A DNA stretch of 32,498 bases from Ignavibacteria bacterium (GTDB lineage: Bacteria; Bacteroidota; Ignavibacteria; Ignavibacteriales; Ignavibacteriaceae). Positions 8,269 to 24,032 of the stretch are shown here, one piece after another. Below the pieces are notes generated by a model. That model had not been told where the DNA came from and did not search any database. It saw nothing but the letters and a program-made list of their open reading frames with translations. The first letter of the stretch is position 1, and the number at the start of each line of letters is the position of its first letter. The stretch spans positions 1 to 32,498 of the forward strand of contig JAJTBZ010000021.1 in NCBI GenBank assembly GCA_021286645.1, in the 5' to 3' direction. The position numbers were made by a program, and so were the translations under genes.

Positions 8269-8407
8269 AAAACTTTCACAACTTTCAGCGCCTGGTGCAC
8301 ATAATTTCTTCAATTTACCCTGTTTTTCCCCGCCCCACAGCCGTATTTAAACTTTAAAATAATACTTAAAGGGCACAATTCCTATTTTATAAATCCCCGG
8401 GATTTTA

Positions 8408-8415
8408 TATATTTG
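8408..8415 (+). promoter_or_regulatory. Bacteroidota-type -7 element upstream of tRNA-His
   Basis: TATATTTG matches the Bacteroidota -7 consensus TAnnTTTG. Initiation a few bases downstream would start the transcript about 5-8 nt before the tRNA. The -33 position (about 8385-8389) has only TTTTA, a weak match to TTTG. Confidence 0.5.
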
Positions 8416-8427
8416 GAATCTTGATTT

Positions 8428-8501
8428 GCTACTGTAGCTCAGTTGGTTAGAGCGCTTGACTGTGGATCAAGAGGTCAGTGGTTCGAGTCCACTCAGTAGT
8501 A
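8428..8501 (+). tRNA. tRNA-His (anticodon GTG), lacking the usual G-1:C73
   Basis: The cloverleaf is complete: acceptor GCTACTG/CAGTAGT, D arm GCTC...GAGC with GG in the loop, anticodon arm CTTGA-CTGTGGA-TCAAG, five-base variable loop, and T arm AGTGG-TTCGAGT-CCACT. The anticodon GTG reads CAU/CAC. CCA is not encoded. Most bacterial tRNA-His genes encode an extra G at -1 opposite C73; here -1 is T, position 1-72 is a G-T wobble and 73 is A. This is the pattern known from a subgroup of Alphaproteobacteria whose histidyl-tRNA synthetase reads U72 and A73 instead (see findings). Confidence 0.96.
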
Positions 8502-8503
8502 CG

Positions 8504-8536
8504 AAAGCCCCGTCTGTATGGCGGGGTTTTGCTTTT
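8504..8536 (+). terminator. Intrinsic terminator of tRNA-His
   Basis: CCCCG (8508-8512) pairs with CGGGG (8522-8526), extended by a G-T and three A-T pairs, with a 9-nt loop and a T-rich tail ending around 8536. It starts two bases after the tRNA. Confidence 0.85.
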
Positions 8537-8545
8537 TATGCAAGC

Positions 8546-14289: not shown

Positions 14290-14865
14290 ATGACTATTAA
14301 CGAAAGTATTGATTTGTTAAAATCGCTCGCGGATGTGTCCCGCCTGCGTATTTTAAATTTGTTGCTTGAAAAACCACGCTACGTAGAAGAAATTGCGGAA
14401 TCACTCAATCTGGCCGCCTCAACCGTATCTTTTCATTTAAAAAAAATGGAAACTGCGGGTTGGGTTGAAAAGAGTAAAGTGCAATATTATATAATATACA
14501 GCCTTAAAGCCGAAGTTTTCGATAAACCATTAAGCACTCTCATTCAATTCGAAAATCCTGATGCGATGCTGCAACAGGAACGAATTGAGCGGTATCATTC
14601 AAAAGTATGCAAAGCATTTTTCGAGCAGGGCAGGCTTCAGAAACTACCGGTCCAACGTAAAAAGAGACTATTGGTACTCAATGAATTTTATAAGAAGTTT
14701 TCGCTGTATAAACCTTATACCGAAAAAGAAGTGAATGAAATAATTGGCTCAATCTACAACGATTACTGCACTATCCGGCGCGAACTTATTGAAGAGGGTT
14801 TAATGGATCGGGATGGGAGCACATACTGGATTTTAGAACAGAAAGAACAGATGAATCATGATTAA
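14290..14865 (+). CDS. ArsR-family winged-helix regulator with C-terminal DUF2087 domain
   Basis: The 191-residue protein is probably a cytoplasmic DNA-binding repressor. Residues 1-75 form an ArsR-type winged helix (LKSLADVSRLRILNLLLEKP, recognition helix STVSFHLKKM at 44-53). The C-terminal part (about 115-181; LQKLPVQRKKRLLVLNEFYKKF, then YTEKEVNEIIGSIYNDYCTIRRELIEEG) is a textbook DUF2087 domain. The classical metal-binding cysteine motif (ELCVCDL) is absent, so it is unlikely to be a standard metal sensor. The start is fixed by an upstream promoter with two palindromes. The gene overlaps the GIY-YIG gene by 8 bases. The ligand or signal is unknown. Confidence 0.9.
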   Translation: MTINESIDLLKSLADVSRLRILNLLLEKPRYVEEIAESLNLAASTVSFHLKKMETAGWVEKSKVQYYIIYSLKAEVFDKPLSTLIQFENPDAMLQQERIERYHSKVCKAFFEQGRLQKLPVQRKKRLLVLNEFYKKFSLYKPYTEKEVNEIIGSIYNDYCTIRRELIEEGLMDRDGSTYWILEQKEQMNHD

Positions 14866-15211
14866 TTTAGATGAATTTAAGAAACAATATAAATTAACTC
14901 CTTTACCAATGGGCGTTTATCAAATACGTAACATGGTTAATGGAAAGATCTTTATCGGAACCAGCAAGGATGTACGGGCACGGATAAATCGGCATAAATT
15001 CGCCCTTGAAACCGGTATTGAAGAGATAAAACCGCTTCTGCTTGATTACCAGAAATATGGTGCGGAAAATTTTTCTTTTGAAGTATTGGATTTACTGGAA
15101 CCCAAAGAAGATATGCCCGGATATGACTACACGGAAGATATATATGAACTCGGATTACTATGGTTGGAAAAATTACAGCCGTATGATGAACGGGGCTATA
15201 ATGTAAAATAA
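14858..15211 (+). CDS. Small GIY-YIG domain protein (putative nuclease)
   Basis: The 117-residue protein is a single GIY-YIG domain: GVY (19-21), NGK-IFIG (28-34, with F at the second Tyr position), R40/R42 and H46 (RARINRHKF), a glutamate in ENFSFEVL (E75) and N115 near the end. R, H and E of the active site are thus present, but the Tyr of YIG is Phe. The fold is shared by UvrC, homing endonucleases and restriction enzymes; small stand-alone members are usually uncharacterised. It overlaps the ArsR-DUF2087 gene by 8 bases, so the two are coupled. The pairing of DUF2087 regulators with such small GIY-YIG proteins recurs in other phyla as I recall, but this was not checked here. Confidence 0.85.
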   Translation: MINLDEFKKQYKLTPLPMGVYQIRNMVNGKIFIGTSKDVRARINRHKFALETGIEEIKPLLLDYQKYGAENFSFEVLDLLEPKEDMPGYDYTEDIYELGLLWLEKLQPYDERGYNVK

Positions 15212-15496: not shown

Positions 15497-18400
15497 TTAT
15501 TTAACTAAGGTCATTTTACGGGTTTGAATAAAACCGTTAGCCCTTAACTGAAAGATGTACAGACCGGAGGATAATTTACTGCCATCAAACGATACCTGAT
15601 GGACTCCTGCTGCTTCTGTTCCATTTACCAGTTCAGCCATTAACTGACCGGTTACTGAATATACCCGCAATTCTACTTTCGATTCCTGCGGCAATGAATA
15701 GCTGATTACCGTTGACGGATTGAACGGATTCGGGTAATTCTGTGCCAATTCATAACTCTTTGGCGCTTCTATTTTTACCATCTTCTCTATCGAAGGAGTC
15801 ATTTTGCCATCATTATCAACCTGTTCCAGGCGATAATAGTACGTCCCTGCGTTTGCTTTTTTGTCAACATACGTGTACTGACGGGCTGAATTTGAGTAGC
15901 CTTTACCTGCTACGAAATCGATACGCTGCCAGTTCATACGGTCTGCTCCCGCGCGGACTACATAAAAGCCGCTGTTATTAACTTCTGATGCCGTTGACCA
16001 GTTCAATACCGGGTGGCCCTGCATCTGGTTTACGCTGAATGAGGTCAGTTCTACCGGTAATAAACTGCCGGTTAATAAAGTAACTACAAAGAAGTCATTC
16101 GCGTTATCGTCTGAATCCCAGCCGTTACCGGTTGTGAAATACGTGGAGGAACTGTTCTGGGCACCGGTGTTATCTTTTCTCCGCATTGCATCGGTATTTG
16201 CCGAAGGTGCTGTCGCACGGCCGGAGCCTTCATAAGCAGTTGCATTTGAACCAAAACCAATTAAATCAACTATCGCCGAAGAACTGGGGGTTGCACCGGA
16301 AAGGGTTGTGCTGTTGCTGCAGAGGGCAACTTTACCAGCAGTCGCGCTCATGTTAATACCTGTAGCATTTACGTTGGCTGTTGGTAATGCGCTGCCTGTT
16401 GCTCCACCGGAGCCAAGCTTGATGAGGAAATAGCTATCTTTTGCAATAGTTGCAGATGCAAAGGCACCGGTAGAAGACCAGGATGTACCTGTTGCACTGG
16501 CATACTGCATAGACCAGCCGGTTACATCAACCGGTGAACTGGTCGGGTTATATAATAATACATAGTCGTTGGTAAATGCCGCACCCGAATTGCCACCTGC
16601 ACCATACACCTCAGCGATAACAATATGGCTGGCTAAAGCAGGTGTTGCTTTGCTGCCGGTAGCAGTAGAAGGTGTAAGATAATTTATGTCTGTTGTTGTA
16701 CCATTATATTCATAAACAGCAACATAATAGGTAATTCCTTTAACTAATCCCGTAACGGTAACGGAGTTACCATTGCCATTATAAATAACGTAATTACCAG
16801 TACCAGTTGTGCTTCCGGAACCGAAAGCAGCGTTAGCTGTATATGAGGAGCCATCCGTAGGATCAACACTTACGGCAGAACCTTGCTTCATAACAACAAT
16901 ACGATTTGCCCCGTCACCGTTTGCCCAGGTAATAGTATACGAGTTAGCCAATATATTACTGAATGTGATAGCCGAAGCCTGAACAGTAGGATCAGCGGCA
17001 AAAGTAGTAACTGATTGCACAGTTGAATTCGCACTGACGCCTGCCGCATTGCTCGCGCGCAACTGGTAGTAATACGTAGTTGCATTCGATAAACCGGTAA
17101 CGGCTTTGGATGTTCCGGTTACATCAAGATTATCATAACCCGTAACAAACTGTGTCATTGCATTATCGGTGCAGACATCAAGTTTATATCCTGCGGCACC
17201 CGTCACAGCTGACCAGTTAACTGTAAAACCTGCTCCGCCGATTAATGATGCAGCAGATAAAGTTGGAGCAGTGCATAAGGTTATCTGTGAAGAAGTACCC
17301 GGAGTTGCTTTATAATTAATTGTTGATGTTGTACCATTGTACTCGTAAACAGCTATGTAATATGTTGTTCCAGCGGTTAAACCTGTAACAACCACACTAT
17401 TAGCGTTCCCCTGGTATACAACATAATTACCTGTTCCAAGTTGCGAACCCGAACCAAACGTGCTATTATCTGTGTACGTATTTCCATCAGCGGGATCAGT
17501 ATCAACAGCATTTCCGGCTTTCATGACCACAATCCTACCGGCACCATTACCTGAAGTGAATGCAATTGTCATCCCTGTTGTACCTACTGAAGAGATACCC
17601 GATATAGCTGCTTGTGTAGTTGGTTCACTGGCAAGAGGGCTTCCGGTGGTAACATCAATGGTGTTTGAGTTATCGCTTGCACCGCCGGCGTTGGTAGCGC
17701 GAACCCGGTAAAAATACTGTGTCTCACCATCGAGTCCACTTACCGAATAGGTGGTAACATTTCCAGTTGAAAGATCTGAATAACTACGAACGAGCGATGC
17801 GAAACCATTGTCGGTGGCAACGTCAATTTTATATCCCGTAGCTCCTGTTACAGCATTCCAGTTTGCAGAAAAACTGCCGCCGGTGACATTAGTTGCCGCG
17901 ATAGCGGTTGGAGCCGCAGGAGCAGTAATCTGATTTGCCGTTCCCGGGGTTGTGGTATAAAAATTTGTTGTAGTTGCTGAACCGTTAAATTCATAGACAG
18001 CTGCATAATATGTAGTTGCCGCACTTAACCCGGTAACGGTAACTGAATTGCCGGTACCGGAATATACCACATAATTGCCAGTTCCTAATTGAGTACCTGA
18101 ACCAAACGCGGCATTTGCAGTATAGGTAGTACCATCAACAGGAGCACTGTTAACTGCTGAACCGGATTTTACCAAAACAATACGTCCCGCACCATTACCT
18201 GAAGTAAAATTCATGGTGAATCCTGTAGCGCTAATTGCAGTAAAAGTCGGGGCACCTGCATTTGTAGTCGGTTCCGCTGCAAGTGTAGAAGTATTATTAA
18301 CAGGGTTTCCTGTAGTCAGGTATTTCTCCGAACCTGCCGAGCCATTATATTCATACACGGTAACATAGTACTGAGTACCCGCTGTTAAACCGGTAATGCT

Positions 18401-19228
18401 GGCAGTTGATCCGTTACCATTATATACAGTCTGCTCACCACTCGCGTAGATAGCGTTGGCTGTATATGTGGTAGCATCTACAGGAGCAGTAAAGCTATTG
18501 GAAGTATTAACTTTTACTATCCGATTTGCGCCATTACCACTGGTCCAGCCAATTGTTAGGCCACTGGCTGTAACAGATGAGAATGTTATAGCAGACGCTG
18601 CTGTTGTTGGAGCAGTTAATACGCCGCCGCTTGGCGTGAATGTAACATCATCCCAGCCAAGGTTATCGGAACTGCTGCCCCCCGAGTGATTAAACCGGAT
18701 ATAAATGTAATCATTATCGTTAATAGTAACATTTGTTACTGTTTGAGTTAAAGTAGTACCGGCAGAAATACCAGTAGTTGCATCATTGAAAGTTAAAGAT
18801 GAAAGTGTATTAGATAATGCACCCGCAGTGGGAACCGTTGCACTGGTATTGTTTGCCCATGTAACAGTTACCGAAGGTGATGCACTACCCGATTTCCACA
18901 TTCTGCCGGTAAATGACAGGGTAAAGCCGGTAATTGTTTGGCCGGTTTTATTCTGCAATTTCCAGGTCGCATACGCGCTGCCAGCAGAACCAGAGCCTAA
19001 ATATGACATATTCGCGTTCCCGTACCAGCCCCCCGAAGTACCGCTTGTCTGGGCTGTTCCTCTCCAGGTTGTATATCCCTGGGTTACCCAGTTGGTGGGA
19101 TCTGCGGTACCGGCAAAACCGGTAAAAGTTTCCTGCACAGCAGTAAAGCTGTTTACTGCTACCTGTGCAAAAGCTGCCTGAGAGAACACCAGGTAGCTTA
19201 TCAACACGTACAGTATTTTTTTCAACAT
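15497..19228 (-). CDS. T9SS-exported multidomain protein A (fibronectin-III repeats, lamin-tail domain, Por sorting domain)
   Basis: The 1243-residue protein is exported and probably anchored at or released from the cell surface. In order: signal peptide (1-22), a beta-sandwich-like N-terminal domain (about 23-200; ETFTGFAG...WGW-DDVTFTP), about six fibronectin-III-type modules (204-865) in the pattern A-A-B-A-B-A, where A modules share 'SGNGA(N/G)RIVxxK' and B modules 'WxAVTGAxGYKxDV', then a lamin-tail (LTD) domain (866-1056; HIVIAEVYGAGG, WDSDDNANDF), an 'LPVELTSF' domain (1057-1158), and a type A T9SS sorting domain (1159-1243; LAQNYPNPFNPST). The B2 module holds the cysteines CTAP/DVCTD, possibly a disulfide. 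It is a paralogue of the next gene. Likely an adhesin; no enzyme motif is seen. Confidence 0.92.
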   Translation of the reverse strand: MLKKILYVLISYLVFSQAAFAQVAVNSFTAVQETFTGFAGTADPTNWVTQGYTTWRGTAQTSGTSGGWYGNANMSYLGSGSAGSAYATWKLQNKTGQTITGFTLSFTGRMWKSGSASPSVTVTWANNTSATVPTAGALSNTLSSLTFNDATTGISAGTTLTQTVTNVTINDNDYIYIRFNHSGGSSSDNLGWDDVTFTPSGGVLTAPTTAASAITFSSVTASGLTIGWTSGNGANRIVKVNTSNSFTAPVDATTYTANAIYASGEQTVYNGNGSTASITGLTAGTQYYVTVYEYNGSAGSEKYLTTGNPVNNTSTLAAEPTTNAGAPTFTAISATGFTMNFTSGNGAGRIVLVKSGSAVNSAPVDGTTYTANAAFGSGTQLGTGNYVVYSGTGNSVTVTGLSAATTYYAAVYEFNGSATTTNFYTTTPGTANQITAPAAPTAIAATNVTGGSFSANWNAVTGATGYKIDVATDNGFASLVRSYSDLSTGNVTTYSVSGLDGETQYFYRVRATNAGGASDNSNTIDVTTGSPLASEPTTQAAISGISSVGTTGMTIAFTSGNGAGRIVVMKAGNAVDTDPADGNTYTDNSTFGSGSQLGTGNYVVYQGNANSVVVTGLTAGTTYYIAVYEYNGTTSTINYKATPGTSSQITLCTAPTLSAASLIGGAGFTVNWSAVTGAAGYKLDVCTDNAMTQFVTGYDNLDVTGTSKAVTGLSNATTYYYQLRASNAAGVSANSTVQSVTTFAADPTVQASAITFSNILANSYTITWANGDGANRIVVMKQGSAVSVDPTDGSSYTANAAFGSGSTTGTGNYVIYNGNGNSVTVTGLVKGITYYVAVYEYNGTTTDINYLTPSTATGSKATPALASHIVIAEVYGAGGNSGAAFTNDYVLLYNPTSSPVDVTGWSMQYASATGTSWSSTGAFASATIAKDSYFLIKLGSGGATGSALPTANVNATGINMSATAGKVALCSNSTTLSGATPSSSAIVDLIGFGSNATAYEGSGRATAPSANTDAMRRKDNTGAQNSSSTYFTTGNGWDSDDNANDFFVVTLLTGSLLPVELTSFSVNQMQGHPVLNWSTASEVNNSGFYVVRAGADRMNWQRIDFVAGKGYSNSARQYTYVDKKANAGTYYYRLEQVDNDGKMTPSIEKMVKIEAPKSYELAQNYPNPFNPSTVISYSLPQESKVELRVYSVTGQLMAELVNGTEAAGVHQVSFDGSKLSSGLYIFQLRANGFIQTRKMTLVK

Positions 19229-19713: not shown

Positions 19714-22700
19714 TTATTTTAGTAAGGTCATTTTACGGGTTTGAATAAAACCGTTAGCTCTTAACTGGAAGATGTACAGACCGGAGGATAATTTAGTGCC
19801 ATCAAACGATACCTGATGGATTCCTGCTGCTTCTGTTCCATTTACCAGTTCAGCCATTAACTGACCTGTTATTGAATATACACGCAATTCTACTTTTGAT
19901 TCCTGCGGCAATGAATAGCTGATTACCGTTGACGGATTGAACGGATTTGGGTAATTCTGTGCCAATTCATAACTCTTTGGCGCTTCTATTTTTACCATCT
20001 TCTCTACCGAAGGAGTCATTTTGCCATCATTATCTACCTGTTCCAGGCGATAATAGTACGTCCCTGCGTTTGCTTTTTTGTCAACATACGTGTACTGACT
20101 GGCTGAGTTCGTGTAGCCTTTACCTGCTACGAAATCGATACGCTGCCAATTCATACGGTCTGCTCCCGCGCGGACTACATAAAAGCCGCTGTTATTAACT
20201 TCTGATGCCGTTGACCAGTTCAATACCGGGTGGCCCTGCATCTGGCTTACGCTGAATGAGGTCAGTTCTACCGGTAATAAACTACCGGCTGATAATGTAA
20301 CTACAAAGAAGTCATTCGCGTTATCGTCTGAATCCCAGCCGTTACCGGTTGTATAATACGTAGAAGAACTGTTCTGGGCACCGGTATTATCTTTTCTCCG
20401 TATTGCATCGGTATTTGCCGAAGGTGCTGTTGCACGGCCGGAGCCTTCATAAGCGGTTGTGCCGGAACCGAAACCAACCAAATCAACTATCGCCGAAGAA
20501 CTGGGGGTTGCACCGGAAAGAGCTGTACTGTTATTACAGATTGCCACCTTACCAGCGGTCGCACTCATGTTAATACCTGTAGCAGTTACGTTGGCTGTTG
20601 GTAATGCGCTGCCTATTGCTCCACCGGAGAAAAGCTTAATGAGGAAATAGCTATCTTTTGCAATAGTTGCAGATGCAAAAGCACCGGTAGAAGACCAGGA
20701 TGTACCTGTTGAGCTGGCATACTGCAAAGACCAGCCGGTTACATCAACCGGTGAGCTGGTCGGGTTATATAATAATACATAGTCATTTGTATAGGTTGCA
20801 CCGGAATTTCCACCCGCGCCATAAACTTCAGCAATTACGATATGGCCTGCTAAAGCTGGTGTTGCCTTGCTGCCGGTGGCCGTTGAAGGAGTTAAATAAT
20901 TGGTATTGGTTGAAGCTCCGTTGTATTCATAAACAGCCACATAATAGGTAAGACCCTTTGTGAGGCCTGTTACTGCAACAGAATTGCCCGGACCTTCATA
21001 AACCACATAATTACCGGTACCGGTTGTGCTGCCTGAACCAAATGCTGCGTTAGCTGTATAGGTAGTACCATCAGTAGGATCAACACTTACCGCGGAGCCT
21101 TGTTTCATAACTACTATCCGGTTAGCGCCATCGCCGCTTGTCCAGTTGATGGTAAATGATGTTGCTGCCGCATTTGTAAAAGTAATATTAGAGGATTGTG
21201 CCGTTGGATCAGCAGCGATAGTACTTGTTGACTGTACTGTTGAACTGGCACTTGAACCTGCCGCATTGCTTGCACGTAACTGATAATAATATGAAGTAAC
21301 CGGTGAAAGACCGGAAACTACTTTCGATGATCCCGTTACATCCAGGTTGTTGTACCCGGTTACAAACTGTGTCATACCATTATCAGTGCATACATCAAGC
21401 TTATATCCGGAAGCACCGGTAACTGCCGACCAGTTAATGGTGAATCCCGCGCCGCCAACAGAAGTAGCGGCTGATAAAGTCGGTGCAGTACATACTGTAA
21501 TCTGCGAACCAGTTCCGGGGGTTGCTTTATAATTAATAGTTGCTGCTGAACCATTGAATTCATAAACAGCAACATAATAAGTTGTTCCTGCAGTTAAGCC
21601 GGTAACAACAACACTGTTTCCTGTACCCTGGTAAACAACATAGTTACCTGTACCGAGCTGTGTACCGGAAGTAAATGCAGCATTATCTGTGTAGGTATTA
21701 CCATCTACAGGGTCGCTGTCGACGGCAGTACCCGATTTCATTACAACGATGCGTCCGGCTCCGTCACCAGAGGTGAAGTTAATCGTCATACCGGTTGTAC
21801 TTACCGAAGCGAAACCGGAAATTGCTGCCTGGGAGCCAGGTTCAGTTGCTAACGGGCTGCCCGTTGTTACATCAATAACGTTCGAGTTATCACCGGCGCC
21901 GCCGCCATTAATAGCACGTACACGGAAGTGATAATCAGTATTTCCGGCTAAACCGCTTACAGAATATGTCGTAACGTTACCGGTAGAAAGATCATTGTAA
22001 CCGCTTACCATAGAAGTAAAGCCTGCATCGGTAGCGACATCAAGTTTGTAACCCGTTGCACCGGTTACCGCGCCCCAGTTAGCCGAGAAACTACCACCAG
22101 TGATATTTGTACCGGCTGTTGCCGTGGGGGCTGTAGGAACGGTTATTTGGTTAGCCGTGCCGGGAGATGTTGTATAATAATTAATTGTTGTTGATGAACC
22201 ATTATATTCATAGACGGCGAAATAATAGGTTGTAATAGCACTTAACCCAGACACAGTAACTGAGTTTCCTGCACCCACGTAAACTACATAGTTTCCGGTA
22301 CCAATCTGGCTGCCGGATCCGAATGCAGTGTTTGCAGTATAAGTAGTACCATCAACAGGGTTACTGTTTACCGCAGAACCTGATTTCATAAGGACAATGC
22401 GTCCAGCACCGTTACCCGAAGTGAAATTTATTGTCATTCCACCGGTTGAAATTGCCGAGAAAGTGGGGTTCCCTGCATTGGAAGTAGGTTCTGTTGAAAG
22501 AGTATACGAGCTACTTACCGGGTTACTGCTGGTTAGATATTTTTCCGATCCGGCAGAACCATTATATTCATAGACGGTAACATAATATTGAGTACCGGCT
22601 GTTAAACCTGTAATAGGAACTGAAGCACCATTCCCGTTATAAACAGTTTGCTCACCGCCTGCATAAGTCGTGTTGGCAGTATATGTCGTGTTATCTGTCG

Positions 22701-23460
22701 GAGCAGTAAAACTATTTGAAGTATTCACTTTAACAATCCGGTTTGCGCCATTTCCACTGGTCCAACCGATTGTCATTCCACCTGTGGTTACAGAAGAGAA
22801 TGTAATTGCTGATGCCGCCGTAGTCGGAGCGGTAATGGCACCCCCGGTTGGGGTAAATGCTACATCATCCCAAGCGAATCCATCAGAGTTTGACCCACCG
22901 GCATGGATAATTCTTACAAATATATAATCGTTGTTAGCGATTGATAATCCTGTAACAGTTTGAGTAAGAGTAGCTTGAGTTGCAATATTTGCTGTTGCAT
23001 CATTGGCCGTCAAACTTGAGAGTGCTGTTAGCGTGCCCGAAGCGGGAACTGAACTTGAAGCACTATTTGAATATGATACTGTCAGCGTAGGACTCGCAGA
23101 CGTATTGCTCTTCCACATGGTAACTTTATAGGAAATAGTAAAGCCCGTGATTGTTGATCCAGTTGTATTCCGTAAAGTCCAAGTAGCATTCGCTGCAGTA
23201 GCATTAGCAGATCCCAAATAACCTAAACTATTATTTCCATACCAACCAGCATTAGTTGAACTGCTACTCATTGTTGAACCTCTATAATTATTTCCAGAAG
23301 TTCCAGATGCAGATAGAGTCCAATTCGTTGGTGGAGTGGACGTACCCAAATATCCAGTATAAGTTTCGGTAACAGTTGAGAAGCTAGCAATATTTTGTTG
23401 AGCAAAACTCAGATTTCCCAACAAAATAATGCTTAGCACAAAAAGTAATCTTTTTGTCAT
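19714..23460 (-). CDS. T9SS-exported multidomain protein B (paralogue of A)
   Basis: The 1248-residue protein has the same architecture as A: signal peptide (1-~20, ending SFAQ), N-terminal beta domain, six fibronectin-III modules (A-A-B-A-B-A), LTD, LPVELTSF domain and type A T9SS sorting domain. I chose ATG 23460 (MTKRLLFVLSI), which has AGGA 9 bases upstream; an ATG at 23475 or an earlier start would add residues that do not look like a signal peptide. The C-terminal ~190 residues differ from A at only about eight positions, while the fibronectin part differs widely at the nucleotide level (see findings). The copies lie head-to-tail, 485 bases apart. Likely a surface adhesin. Confidence 0.92.
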   Translation of the reverse strand: MTKRLLFVLSIILLGNLSFAQQNIASFSTVTETYTGYLGTSTPPTNWTLSASGTSGNNYRGSTMSSSSTNAGWYGNNSLGYLGSANATAANATWTLRNTTGSTITGFTISYKVTMWKSNTSASPTLTVSYSNSASSSVPASGTLTALSSLTANDATANIATQATLTQTVTGLSIANNDYIFVRIIHAGGSNSDGFAWDDVAFTPTGGAITAPTTAASAITFSSVTTGGMTIGWTSGNGANRIVKVNTSNSFTAPTDNTTYTANTTYAGGEQTVYNGNGASVPITGLTAGTQYYVTVYEYNGSAGSEKYLTSSNPVSSSYTLSTEPTSNAGNPTFSAISTGGMTINFTSGNGAGRIVLMKSGSAVNSNPVDGTTYTANTAFGSGSQIGTGNYVVYVGAGNSVTVSGLSAITTYYFAVYEYNGSSTTINYYTTSPGTANQITVPTAPTATAGTNITGGSFSANWGAVTGATGYKLDVATDAGFTSMVSGYNDLSTGNVTTYSVSGLAGNTDYHFRVRAINGGGAGDNSNVIDVTTGSPLATEPGSQAAISGFASVSTTGMTINFTSGDGAGRIVVMKSGTAVDSDPVDGNTYTDNAAFTSGTQLGTGNYVVYQGTGNSVVVTGLTAGTTYYVAVYEFNGSAATINYKATPGTGSQITVCTAPTLSAATSVGGAGFTINWSAVTGASGYKLDVCTDNGMTQFVTGYNNLDVTGSSKVVSGLSPVTSYYYQLRASNAAGSSASSTVQSTSTIAADPTAQSSNITFTNAAATSFTINWTSGDGANRIVVMKQGSAVSVDPTDGTTYTANAAFGSGSTTGTGNYVVYEGPGNSVAVTGLTKGLTYYVAVYEYNGASTNTNYLTPSTATGSKATPALAGHIVIAEVYGAGGNSGATYTNDYVLLYNPTSSPVDVTGWSLQYASSTGTSWSSTGAFASATIAKDSYFLIKLFSGGAIGSALPTANVTATGINMSATAGKVAICNNSTALSGATPSSSAIVDLVGFGSGTTAYEGSGRATAPSANTDAIRRKDNTGAQNSSSTYYTTGNGWDSDDNANDFFVVTLSAGSLLPVELTSFSVSQMQGHPVLNWSTASEVNNSGFYVVRAGADRMNWQRIDFVAGKGYTNSASQYTYVDKKANAGTYYYRLEQVDNDGKMTPSVEKMVKIEAPKSYELAQNYPNPFNPSTVISYSLPQESKVELRVYSITGQLMAELVNGTEAAGIHQVSFDGTKLSSGLYIFQLRANGFIQTRKMTLLK

Positions 23461-24032
23461 AATCGTTTTCCTCATTAAGTATATATATAATTCATAAATC
23501 TCACTACTCAGAAGGGAGTTCAGGCACTCGAAGAGAAGCATTTCTATCAGAACGGCTCACACTCGAACAACAAATGTTTACTGAACCAACTTCATACAAT
23601 CAAGACTATTCTCCAGCAAGAATAACCCGATCAAACTCATTCTTAGAAACAAATTGCAATCTTTTGATTCTAAGGGAGTAAAAACTACTAACAAATAGCG
23701 GAATAATCTAATTATAACTATTTTTATAATTATTCACTGTCACCCCGGTTAACTCGTTATTGTCTATTGTGTTAGCCCGTACTTTCCCCTGCCAATGGTG
23801 ACATTCTTTTACACCCAAAAATTATCTGTTCCAAACTACGCTTTCTGTATTAAGTAGATGTTACTACAGTATTAAGGATTGCCCCTAAATAGTGTTTTAT
23901 ACGCGTGTAAATAATTCTATTCTACAAGGTATAATGCCTTATTAAGTAAGGGTCTATAATGATAATAACTCAGATAACTGAGCAAAAAACCGTATCTTTA
24001 ACATCCAATTATTGATTATAAAGTGAAAGTAC
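23461..24032. other. 572-base intergenic region between T9SS protein B and proS
   Basis: No gene is seen. It holds the leader of T9SS protein B with the shared inverted repeat (23710-23731), and on the plus strand promoter-like TATAAT boxes at about 23930 and 23955, a short CTCAG-ATAA-CTGAG hairpin near 23969-23982, and TATCTTTA near 23993 before proS. None is decisive. Confidence 0.6.
23710..23731. promoter_or_regulatory. Inverted repeat AATTATAA-N6-TTATAATT upstream of T9SS protein B
   Basis: Two perfect 8-bp arms flank the spacer CTATTT, 250 bp before the start codon at 23460. The arms match those upstream of T9SS protein A exactly; the surrounding leaders are otherwise hard to align, so the element stands out. 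Confidence 0.45.

Follow-up and report, generated by a model that had tools for sequence, protein, structure and literature searches.

The window, the whole stretch of 32,498 nucleotides analysed here, carries a single tRNA gene, an intact tRNA-His(GUG) at positions 8428 to 8501 of the forward strand. The gene matches Rfam RF00005 over its full length (74.2 bits, E = 1.1e-14), the third-best score among the 43 tRNA matches in its own genome, and ARAGORN places a tRNA-His(gtg) at 8428-8502. All seven pairs of the acceptor stem form by position, with G1 (8428) facing T72 (8500) in a G1:U72 wobble; the discriminator base A73 lies at 8501 and is followed by CGA, and CCA is thus not encoded. The base at -1 (8427, forward strand) is T, where canonical tRNA-His has G, the additional base by which nearly all bacteria mark this tRNA. 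A sequence-only reading of this DNA had described these same features, namely, T at -1, G1-T72, A73, and no encoded G-1, and the sequence, ARAGORN, and Rfam bear it out. Folded alone as RNA, the gene gave no cloverleaf (z = -0.31), and the evidence used here is the covariance-model match.

A tRNA scan of the whole genome, suggested in that reading, identified this gene as the sole tRNA-His among 43 distinct tRNA genes (ARAGORN typing at 40 loci). A second, canonical tRNA-His accompanied by a standard HisRS, which would have pointed to a secondary role for the gene, was sought in this genome and not found. The assembly (G000, 3.72 Mb) is 99.02% complete but consists of 108 contigs, so that an overlooked second tRNA-His is possible but unlikely. 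The odd acceptor end is the one feature that might suggest a decayed secondary gene or contamination. Since the gene scores among the best tRNAs of its genome and is the only tRNA-His found there, since the genome has a contamination figure of 0.05%, and since a second genome of the same genus (G363) has an identical acceptor stem and the same placement beside rnr, we give this explanation hardly any credence. A pseudogene was rejected on the basis of the Rfam score and the sole copy.

Directly 3' of tRNA-His, an intrinsic-terminator-like hairpin with a T-rich tail is predicted at 8504-8530 on the forward strand (one site, compared to a mean of 0.4 and sd of 0.6 in shuffles), and the predicted fold of 8502-8540 has an energy of -18.3 kcal/mol (z = -4.64). 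Upstream, the 14-mer TATATTTGGAATCT at 8408-8421 (forward strand) might represent a promoter -7 region, judged by its resemblance to TAnnTTTG, the -7 box of Bacteroidota promoters. An exact string search of 35 own-genome loci and the window found this 14-mer again upstream of tRNA-Glu in the Arg-Glu tRNA cluster. A sigma-70-like match at 8386-8413 was no better than chance (one promoter-like site versus a mean of 0.8 in shuffles). The tRNA gene adjoins rnr, as it does in G363. Elsewhere in the window, two long, similar tandem proteins with T9SS type A sorting domains are encoded at 15497-19228 and 19714-23541, and at 14290-15211 an ArsR-like regulator gene overlaps a small gene whose product is similar to group I intron endonucleases (53.5 bits, slightly short of the cut-off of 56.05). 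The Bacteroidota-like reading of the host is based on the T9SS sorting domains and on named Bacteroidota metagenome-assembled genomes (MAGs) in the same HisRS sub-clade.

In our comparison set of tRNA-His genes with C73, all 34 distinct gene-plus-leader sequences had G-1 and G1:C72, and absence of G-1 and C73 from the window gene is therefore not chance variation. Among 25 distinct gene-plus-leader sequences with A73, the base at -1 was T in 21, C in 2, A in 1, and G in 1, and the 1:72 pair was G:U in 21 and C:G in 4; tRNA-His of RA.bin91 escaped the A73 pattern and is outside these counts. In a yak reticulum Bacteroidales MAG (G297, locus L224), an A73 tRNA-His has an encoded G at -1, leaving G-1 and A73 unpaired. 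The frequent T raises the question of whether U-1 is retained and pairs with A73, yielding an 8-bp acceptor stem in which U-1:A73 replaces G-1:C73. However, T is common at -1 in the tRNA genes of the own genome (23/43, with G in 1/43), which gives no sign of this position being marked for retention, and in the four remaining A73 sequences this base is C (twice), A, or G. We consider retention of U-1 very improbable.

The own genome encodes one HisRS above the hisS cut-off, a protein of 523 amino acids on contig C70, outside the window, containing the HisRS core and anticodon-binding domains. In a comparison with plasmid records, the best 18 matches were all alphaproteobacterial, from Paracoccus, Ruegeria, Sinorhizobium, Shinella, Methylobacterium, and other genera, and 37.8 to 44.8% identical; the matches ranked below these (22 more among the best 40 of 86) came from other groups and were at most 30.6% identical. 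Identity to six canonical HisRS of the phylum, including three from the same family, was 24.5 to 27.8%. The best solved-structure match was another HisRS, 3net (150.6 bits), and human cytoplasmic HisRS scored 145.6 bits, both with identity far below that of the alphaproteobacterial enzymes.

Motif 2 of this HisRS reads EAKLDPGRFREF: PQxGR is altered to LDPGR, with Asp in place of Gln (KLDPGR) and one extra residue inserted into the loop. We take the aligned Gln site to be Gln123 of PMC3937112, where a figure legend on the motif IIb loop describes Gln123 as contacting G-1:C73 and assigns Gly123 to Alphaproteobacteria. All 38 HisRS rows of the A73 clade contain xPGR[FY], and the Gln site is altered in 37 of them. 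Asp is present in 18 rows, including that of the window's genome, Gly in 15, Met, Leu, Glu, and Ser in one each, and Gln in one (G359); the Gly rows are all those of Alphaproteobacteria, Planctomycetota, Phycisphaerae, and RA.bin91. Of the 18 rows representing HisRS of other types, 17 retain Gln here, and PQxGR was found in 13 of the 14 from the Bacteroidota phylum; the lone exception among the 18 is Lys in a Stenotrophomonas HisRS fragment (286 amino acids). Thus, the own pair lacks both canonical features, the encoded G-1 paired with C73 and the Gln in the motif 2 loop, and its HisRS also lacks the derived Gly123, having Asp and the insertion instead. In G359, which belongs to the same family, an A73-type HisRS retains Gln (KLQPGR), and its tRNA-His was not found by pattern; loss of Gln is hence not absolute within the A73 clade.

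The residue at the Gln site also varied with the first acceptor pair. Four tRNA-His genes with C1:G72, adjoining hisS at L084, L088, L089, and L090, are partnered with enzymes in which this site is occupied by Met, Leu, Glu, or Ser, and 20 genomes with G1:U72 and an aligned HisRS have Asp (15) or Gly (5). It is possible that the 1:72 pair and the Gln site have co-evolved; the four C1:G72 partners form one HisRS sub-clade, and the covariation may therefore reflect a single event.

In a tree of 55 HisRS rows, all 38 A73-type enzymes formed one clade (100/99). The HisRS of the window's genome belonged to an 18-row clade (100/100) consisting of nine rows of its own family, held together weakly (84/68), and nine MAG rows (96/87) assigned to Saprospirales, Saprospiraceae, Lewinella, Chitinophagales, Bacteroidales, or Bacteroidota. 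Joined to this clade at 100/100 was a sister group of 15 rows (94/87), composed of two Planctomycetota/Phycisphaerae MAGs, RA.bin91, and 12 Alphaproteobacteria. The alphaproteobacterial rows formed a clade of their own (100/99), which excludes this HisRS; it is not nested among them. Families f5 and f8 of the window's class fell outside the joined groups, with the branching order unsettled. With groups named after the tree had been seen, approximately unbiased (AU) tests rejected a single clade for the A73-type HisRS of the window's class (p = 4.9e-30) and were borderline for a single clade of all Bacteroidota A73-type HisRS (p = 0.047). The named HisRS set comprised the best 80 of at least 593 candidates, so that other phyla are thinly sampled. 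The Stenotrophomonas fragment, the G319 HisRS (in two pieces), and the G363 HisRS (243 amino acids) were not included in the tree. We define here a wider A73-type tRNA-His/HisRS clade by a single HisRS clade, xPGR[FY], and a partner tRNA with A73, and the own pair belongs to it.

Caulobacter tRNA-His is reported to have U72 and A73, and the sequence-only reading had considered the bases of the window gene to be exactly those read by the Caulobacter-like HisRS. This holds for the tRNA with regard to U72 and A73; the HisRS, in contrast, shares one clade with the G-1-less alphaproteobacterial enzymes as a sister lineage, distinguished by Asp for Gly and the inserted residue. The same reading had raised the possibility that G-1 is added after transcription. 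Eukaryotic tRNA-His has A73 as its discriminator, opposite which Thg1 places G-1 according to the passages on this reaction in PMC4284800, and a eukaryote-like addition would leave charging conventional. The search for a Thg1-like protein proposed there (PF04446, E 0.001) yielded no match in the own genome and was positive in one of 14 control genomes, Methanosarcina acetivorans. Moreover, the HisRS lacks the Gln described in PMC3937112 as contacting G-1:C73, and its clade, which goes with G-1-less tRNA, includes Alphaproteobacteria, reported to be without Thg1 and G-1 in the corresponding passages of PMC4284800. We rejected eukaryote-like addition for want of a Thg1 match and assign it a very small residual probability.

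We surveyed both genes across genomes. In the phylum, 7 of 296 genomes have a HisRS scoring at least 244 bits to the query, the next best scoring 168 bits, and A73 tRNA-His was found in the same seven, six by the first pattern and the seventh (G039) by a looser one. C73 tRNA-His was found in 231 of the 296, of which 214 were identified by pattern and 17, from 22 retested genomes, were judged by eye; 58 were left untyped. None of the seven genomes with A73-type HisRS yielded a C73 tRNA-His by these patterns. In the family, 11 of 80 genomes carry A73-type HisRS, and tRNA-His was typed in 51, leaving 29 untyped. Of the typed genomes, 10 have A73, nine of them with A73-type HisRS and one without (G379, 82% complete); the other 41 have C73, and none of these carries A73-type HisRS. 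In two of the 11, G319 and G359, the pattern search found no tRNA-His. Among 17 named genomes with A73-type HisRS, 13 gave the 3' half of an A73 tRNA-His, 12 of which were seen as whole genes, and no tRNA-His was found by pattern in the other four (three Bacteroidales MAGs and one Paracoccus). A loose pattern applied to seven genomes gave mostly chance matches, controls giving nearly as many. Wherever both genes were found in these sequences, HisRS type and discriminator base are associated without exception. In Salipiger mangrovisoli (G307, L230), the one inspected of two A73 tRNA-His copies is a lone 3' half on contig C44 near 69866, with the second match near 81117, about 11 kb away; this looks like a repeat marking the attachment site of an element that entered tRNA-His.

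In canonical members of the family, tRNA-His is flanked by tRNA-Arg(tct) and tRNA-Glu(ttc). Nine of the 41 genomes with C73 were inspected, including G140; eight show Arg-His-Glu and the ninth His-Glu. Probing with the Arg-Glu region of the own genome, combined with ARAGORN, revealed that Arg adjoins Glu without His in 9 of the 12 genomes of the A73 set (G000, G363, G180, G380, G360, G379, G359, G378, and G313); the other three (G320, G361, and G319) were uninformative, the cluster being rearranged, cut, or not resolved. Near the His-less cluster of the own genome (contig C16, L024 1200-1440), partial degenerate copies of tRNA-Pro flank an intact tRNA-Pro, as seen by eye. With the acceptor stem set aside, the body of the window tRNA reaches an identity of no more than 0.763 with the C73 tRNA-His of its own family, whereas its 12 nearest tRNA bodies are all A73 and 0.814 to 0.915 identical. 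The mean best identity of nine family A73 tRNAs shows a modest gap, 0.895 to other A73 tRNAs versus 0.847 to family C73 tRNAs. Taken together, body identity and the missing His in the Arg-Glu cluster fit loss of the native gene better than its editing.

Convergent change of the native tRNA had been another suggestion of the sequence-only reading. The resident tRNA-His would have lost G-1 and exchanged C73 for A73 in place, and HisRS would have adapted to the change or been exchanged; Ardell and Andersson are said to have proposed such a model for Alphaproteobacteria. Although this would result in the same tRNA end state, it is at odds with the tRNA body, which resembles A73 tRNAs from elsewhere, with the loss of His from its native cluster, and with the location of A73 tRNA-His beside hisS in relatives. 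We regard in-place change as unlikely, albeit somewhat less so than the rivals discussed above.

At eight loci (L084, L088, L089, L090, L092, and those of G313, G360, and G361), an A73 tRNA-His precedes a hisS of the same orientation by 53 to 173 bp, with hisS start codons chosen by script, and in RA.bin91 the distance is 59 bp. All nine tRNA-hisS spacers analysed (L084, L088, L089, L090, L092, L253, L252, L198, and L115) contain at least five consecutive T and a hairpin by prediction, as does the DNA following the window tRNA; the hairpin may serve as an attenuator or just terminate the tRNA transcript. The distance is larger in G180 (2.8 kb) and G378 (5.5 kb), and in three f5 genomes tRNA-His is located on the hisS contig, 3 to 9 kb from hisS. 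In G000, G363, G320, G255, and G039, the two genes are on separate contigs, and linkage is thus seen in relatives of the own genome only. The hisS loci of Alphaproteobacteria that were scanned (L093-L096, L128, L130, L149, and L156) showed no tRNA-His.

In an rpoB tree of 28 of 30 genomes (SH-aLRT only), the 11 family genomes carrying A73-type HisRS grouped with a C73 genome, G342, at 99. At least two label changes are needed on this tree, G342 being placed inside the A73 clade with modest support; G342 retains the Arg-His-Glu cluster. Absent from the tree were G336 (split rpoB) and G381 (no match). In G336 (C3:8901-12463) and G363 (C301:39-2911), rpoB appears as two separate matches, reflecting a split gene, a frameshift, or an assembly error. 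A single acquisition followed by vertical descent would fit these data best. A viral vector for the pair found no support, as none of the 12 pattern matches in viral contigs searched for HisRS was a HisRS by tblastn.

HisRS phylogeny, the exceptionless association, tRNA-hisS linkage in relatives, and the vacated native locus together argue strongly for transfer of the pair, the remaining suggestion of the sequence-only reading. We propose, with a probability of roughly 0.87, that the window tRNA-His is part of a foreign, matched tRNA-His/HisRS pair, acquired horizontally, which displaced the native pair in the ancestor of the sub-clade. The ancestor of about six genera in the family would have received a tRNA-hisS cassette and subsequently lost its resident pair, and in the window's genus tRNA-His would have come to adjoin rnr, apart from hisS. 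RNase P would then cleave at +1, the site it uses in other tRNAs, and thereby remove the -1 base; the C-terminal domain of HisRS would read the GUG anticodon and the motif 2 loop lacking Gln would read A73/U72, and a tRNA without G-1 would thereby be charged.

As far as we searched, the occurrence of the G-1-less tRNA-His switch outside Alphaproteobacteria appears to be new, though it may have been noticed earlier. The acidobacterium Solibacter may also have a G-1-less tRNA-His/HisRS pair, for which no literature support was found among the matches listed. Nor did the papers listed in the literature searches include a report of G-1-less tRNA-His in bacteria outside Alphaproteobacteria, and among bacteria with this trait the relevant passages of PMC4284800 name solely alphaproteobacterial groups. 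We see about even odds that G-1-less histidine identity is an older, compact tRNA-His/hisS cassette that replaced resident pairs in several phyla, and that Alphaproteobacteria, alongside Bacteroidota, Planctomycetota, and other groups, are one of its recipients or descendants. If this is true, the cassette could spread because its matched pair is orthogonal to that of the recipient, where no adaptation of the tRNA is required. In passages of PMC3937112 and PMC5370408, tRNA identity rules are presented as resistant to horizontal transfer, and PMC5370408 regards the eukaryote-like state of Alphaproteobacteria as possibly convergent with eukaryotes. A phylum-crossing cassette would demonstrate a one-step swap of an identity rule and would caution against use of the G-1 trait alone as a phylogenetic marker. 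Cassette pairs might also provide new HisRS/tRNA-His pairs, maybe orthogonal to those of E. coli.

Among known systems, the canonical bacterial pair shares with the own pair the GUG anticodon and the HisRS core and anticodon-binding domains, but differs in G-1:C73 and in a distant HisRS. Eukaryotic cytosolic tRNA-His likewise has A73 and no encoded G-1; there, Thg1, without a match in the own genome, adds G-1, which is absent in Acanthamoeba and Trypanosoma brucei according to the passages on these organisms in PMC4284800. Archaeal-type TyrRS and TrpRS in candidate-phyla bacteria, as portrayed in PMC5370408, similarly combine a transferred synthetase with foreign tRNA identity rules, although our case concerns another amino acid and other donors. 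The alphaproteobacterial "RRCH" pair, exemplified by Caulobacter crescentus in the passages of PMC3937112 describing it, shares the lack of an encoded G-1, A73, G1:U72 in the genes compared, a HisRS from one and the same clade whose motif 2 loop has xPGR[FY] and no Gln, and, as far as the account in PMC4284800 bears on it, no reported Thg1. The Caulobacter pair is orthogonal to that of E. coli through the discriminator, position 72, and G-1 (as outlined in PMC3875453), and A73 is cited as a minor element for Caulobacter in a passage of PMC5370408. The own pair differs from the RRCH pair in its host, a Bacteroidota-like lineage with T9SS sorting domains, in a HisRS at most about 46% identical and outside the alphaproteobacterial clade, in Asp rather than Gly at the Gln site together with the one-residue loop insertion, and in the linkage of tRNA-His to hisS in its relatives, a linkage not seen in the scanned alphaproteobacterial loci.
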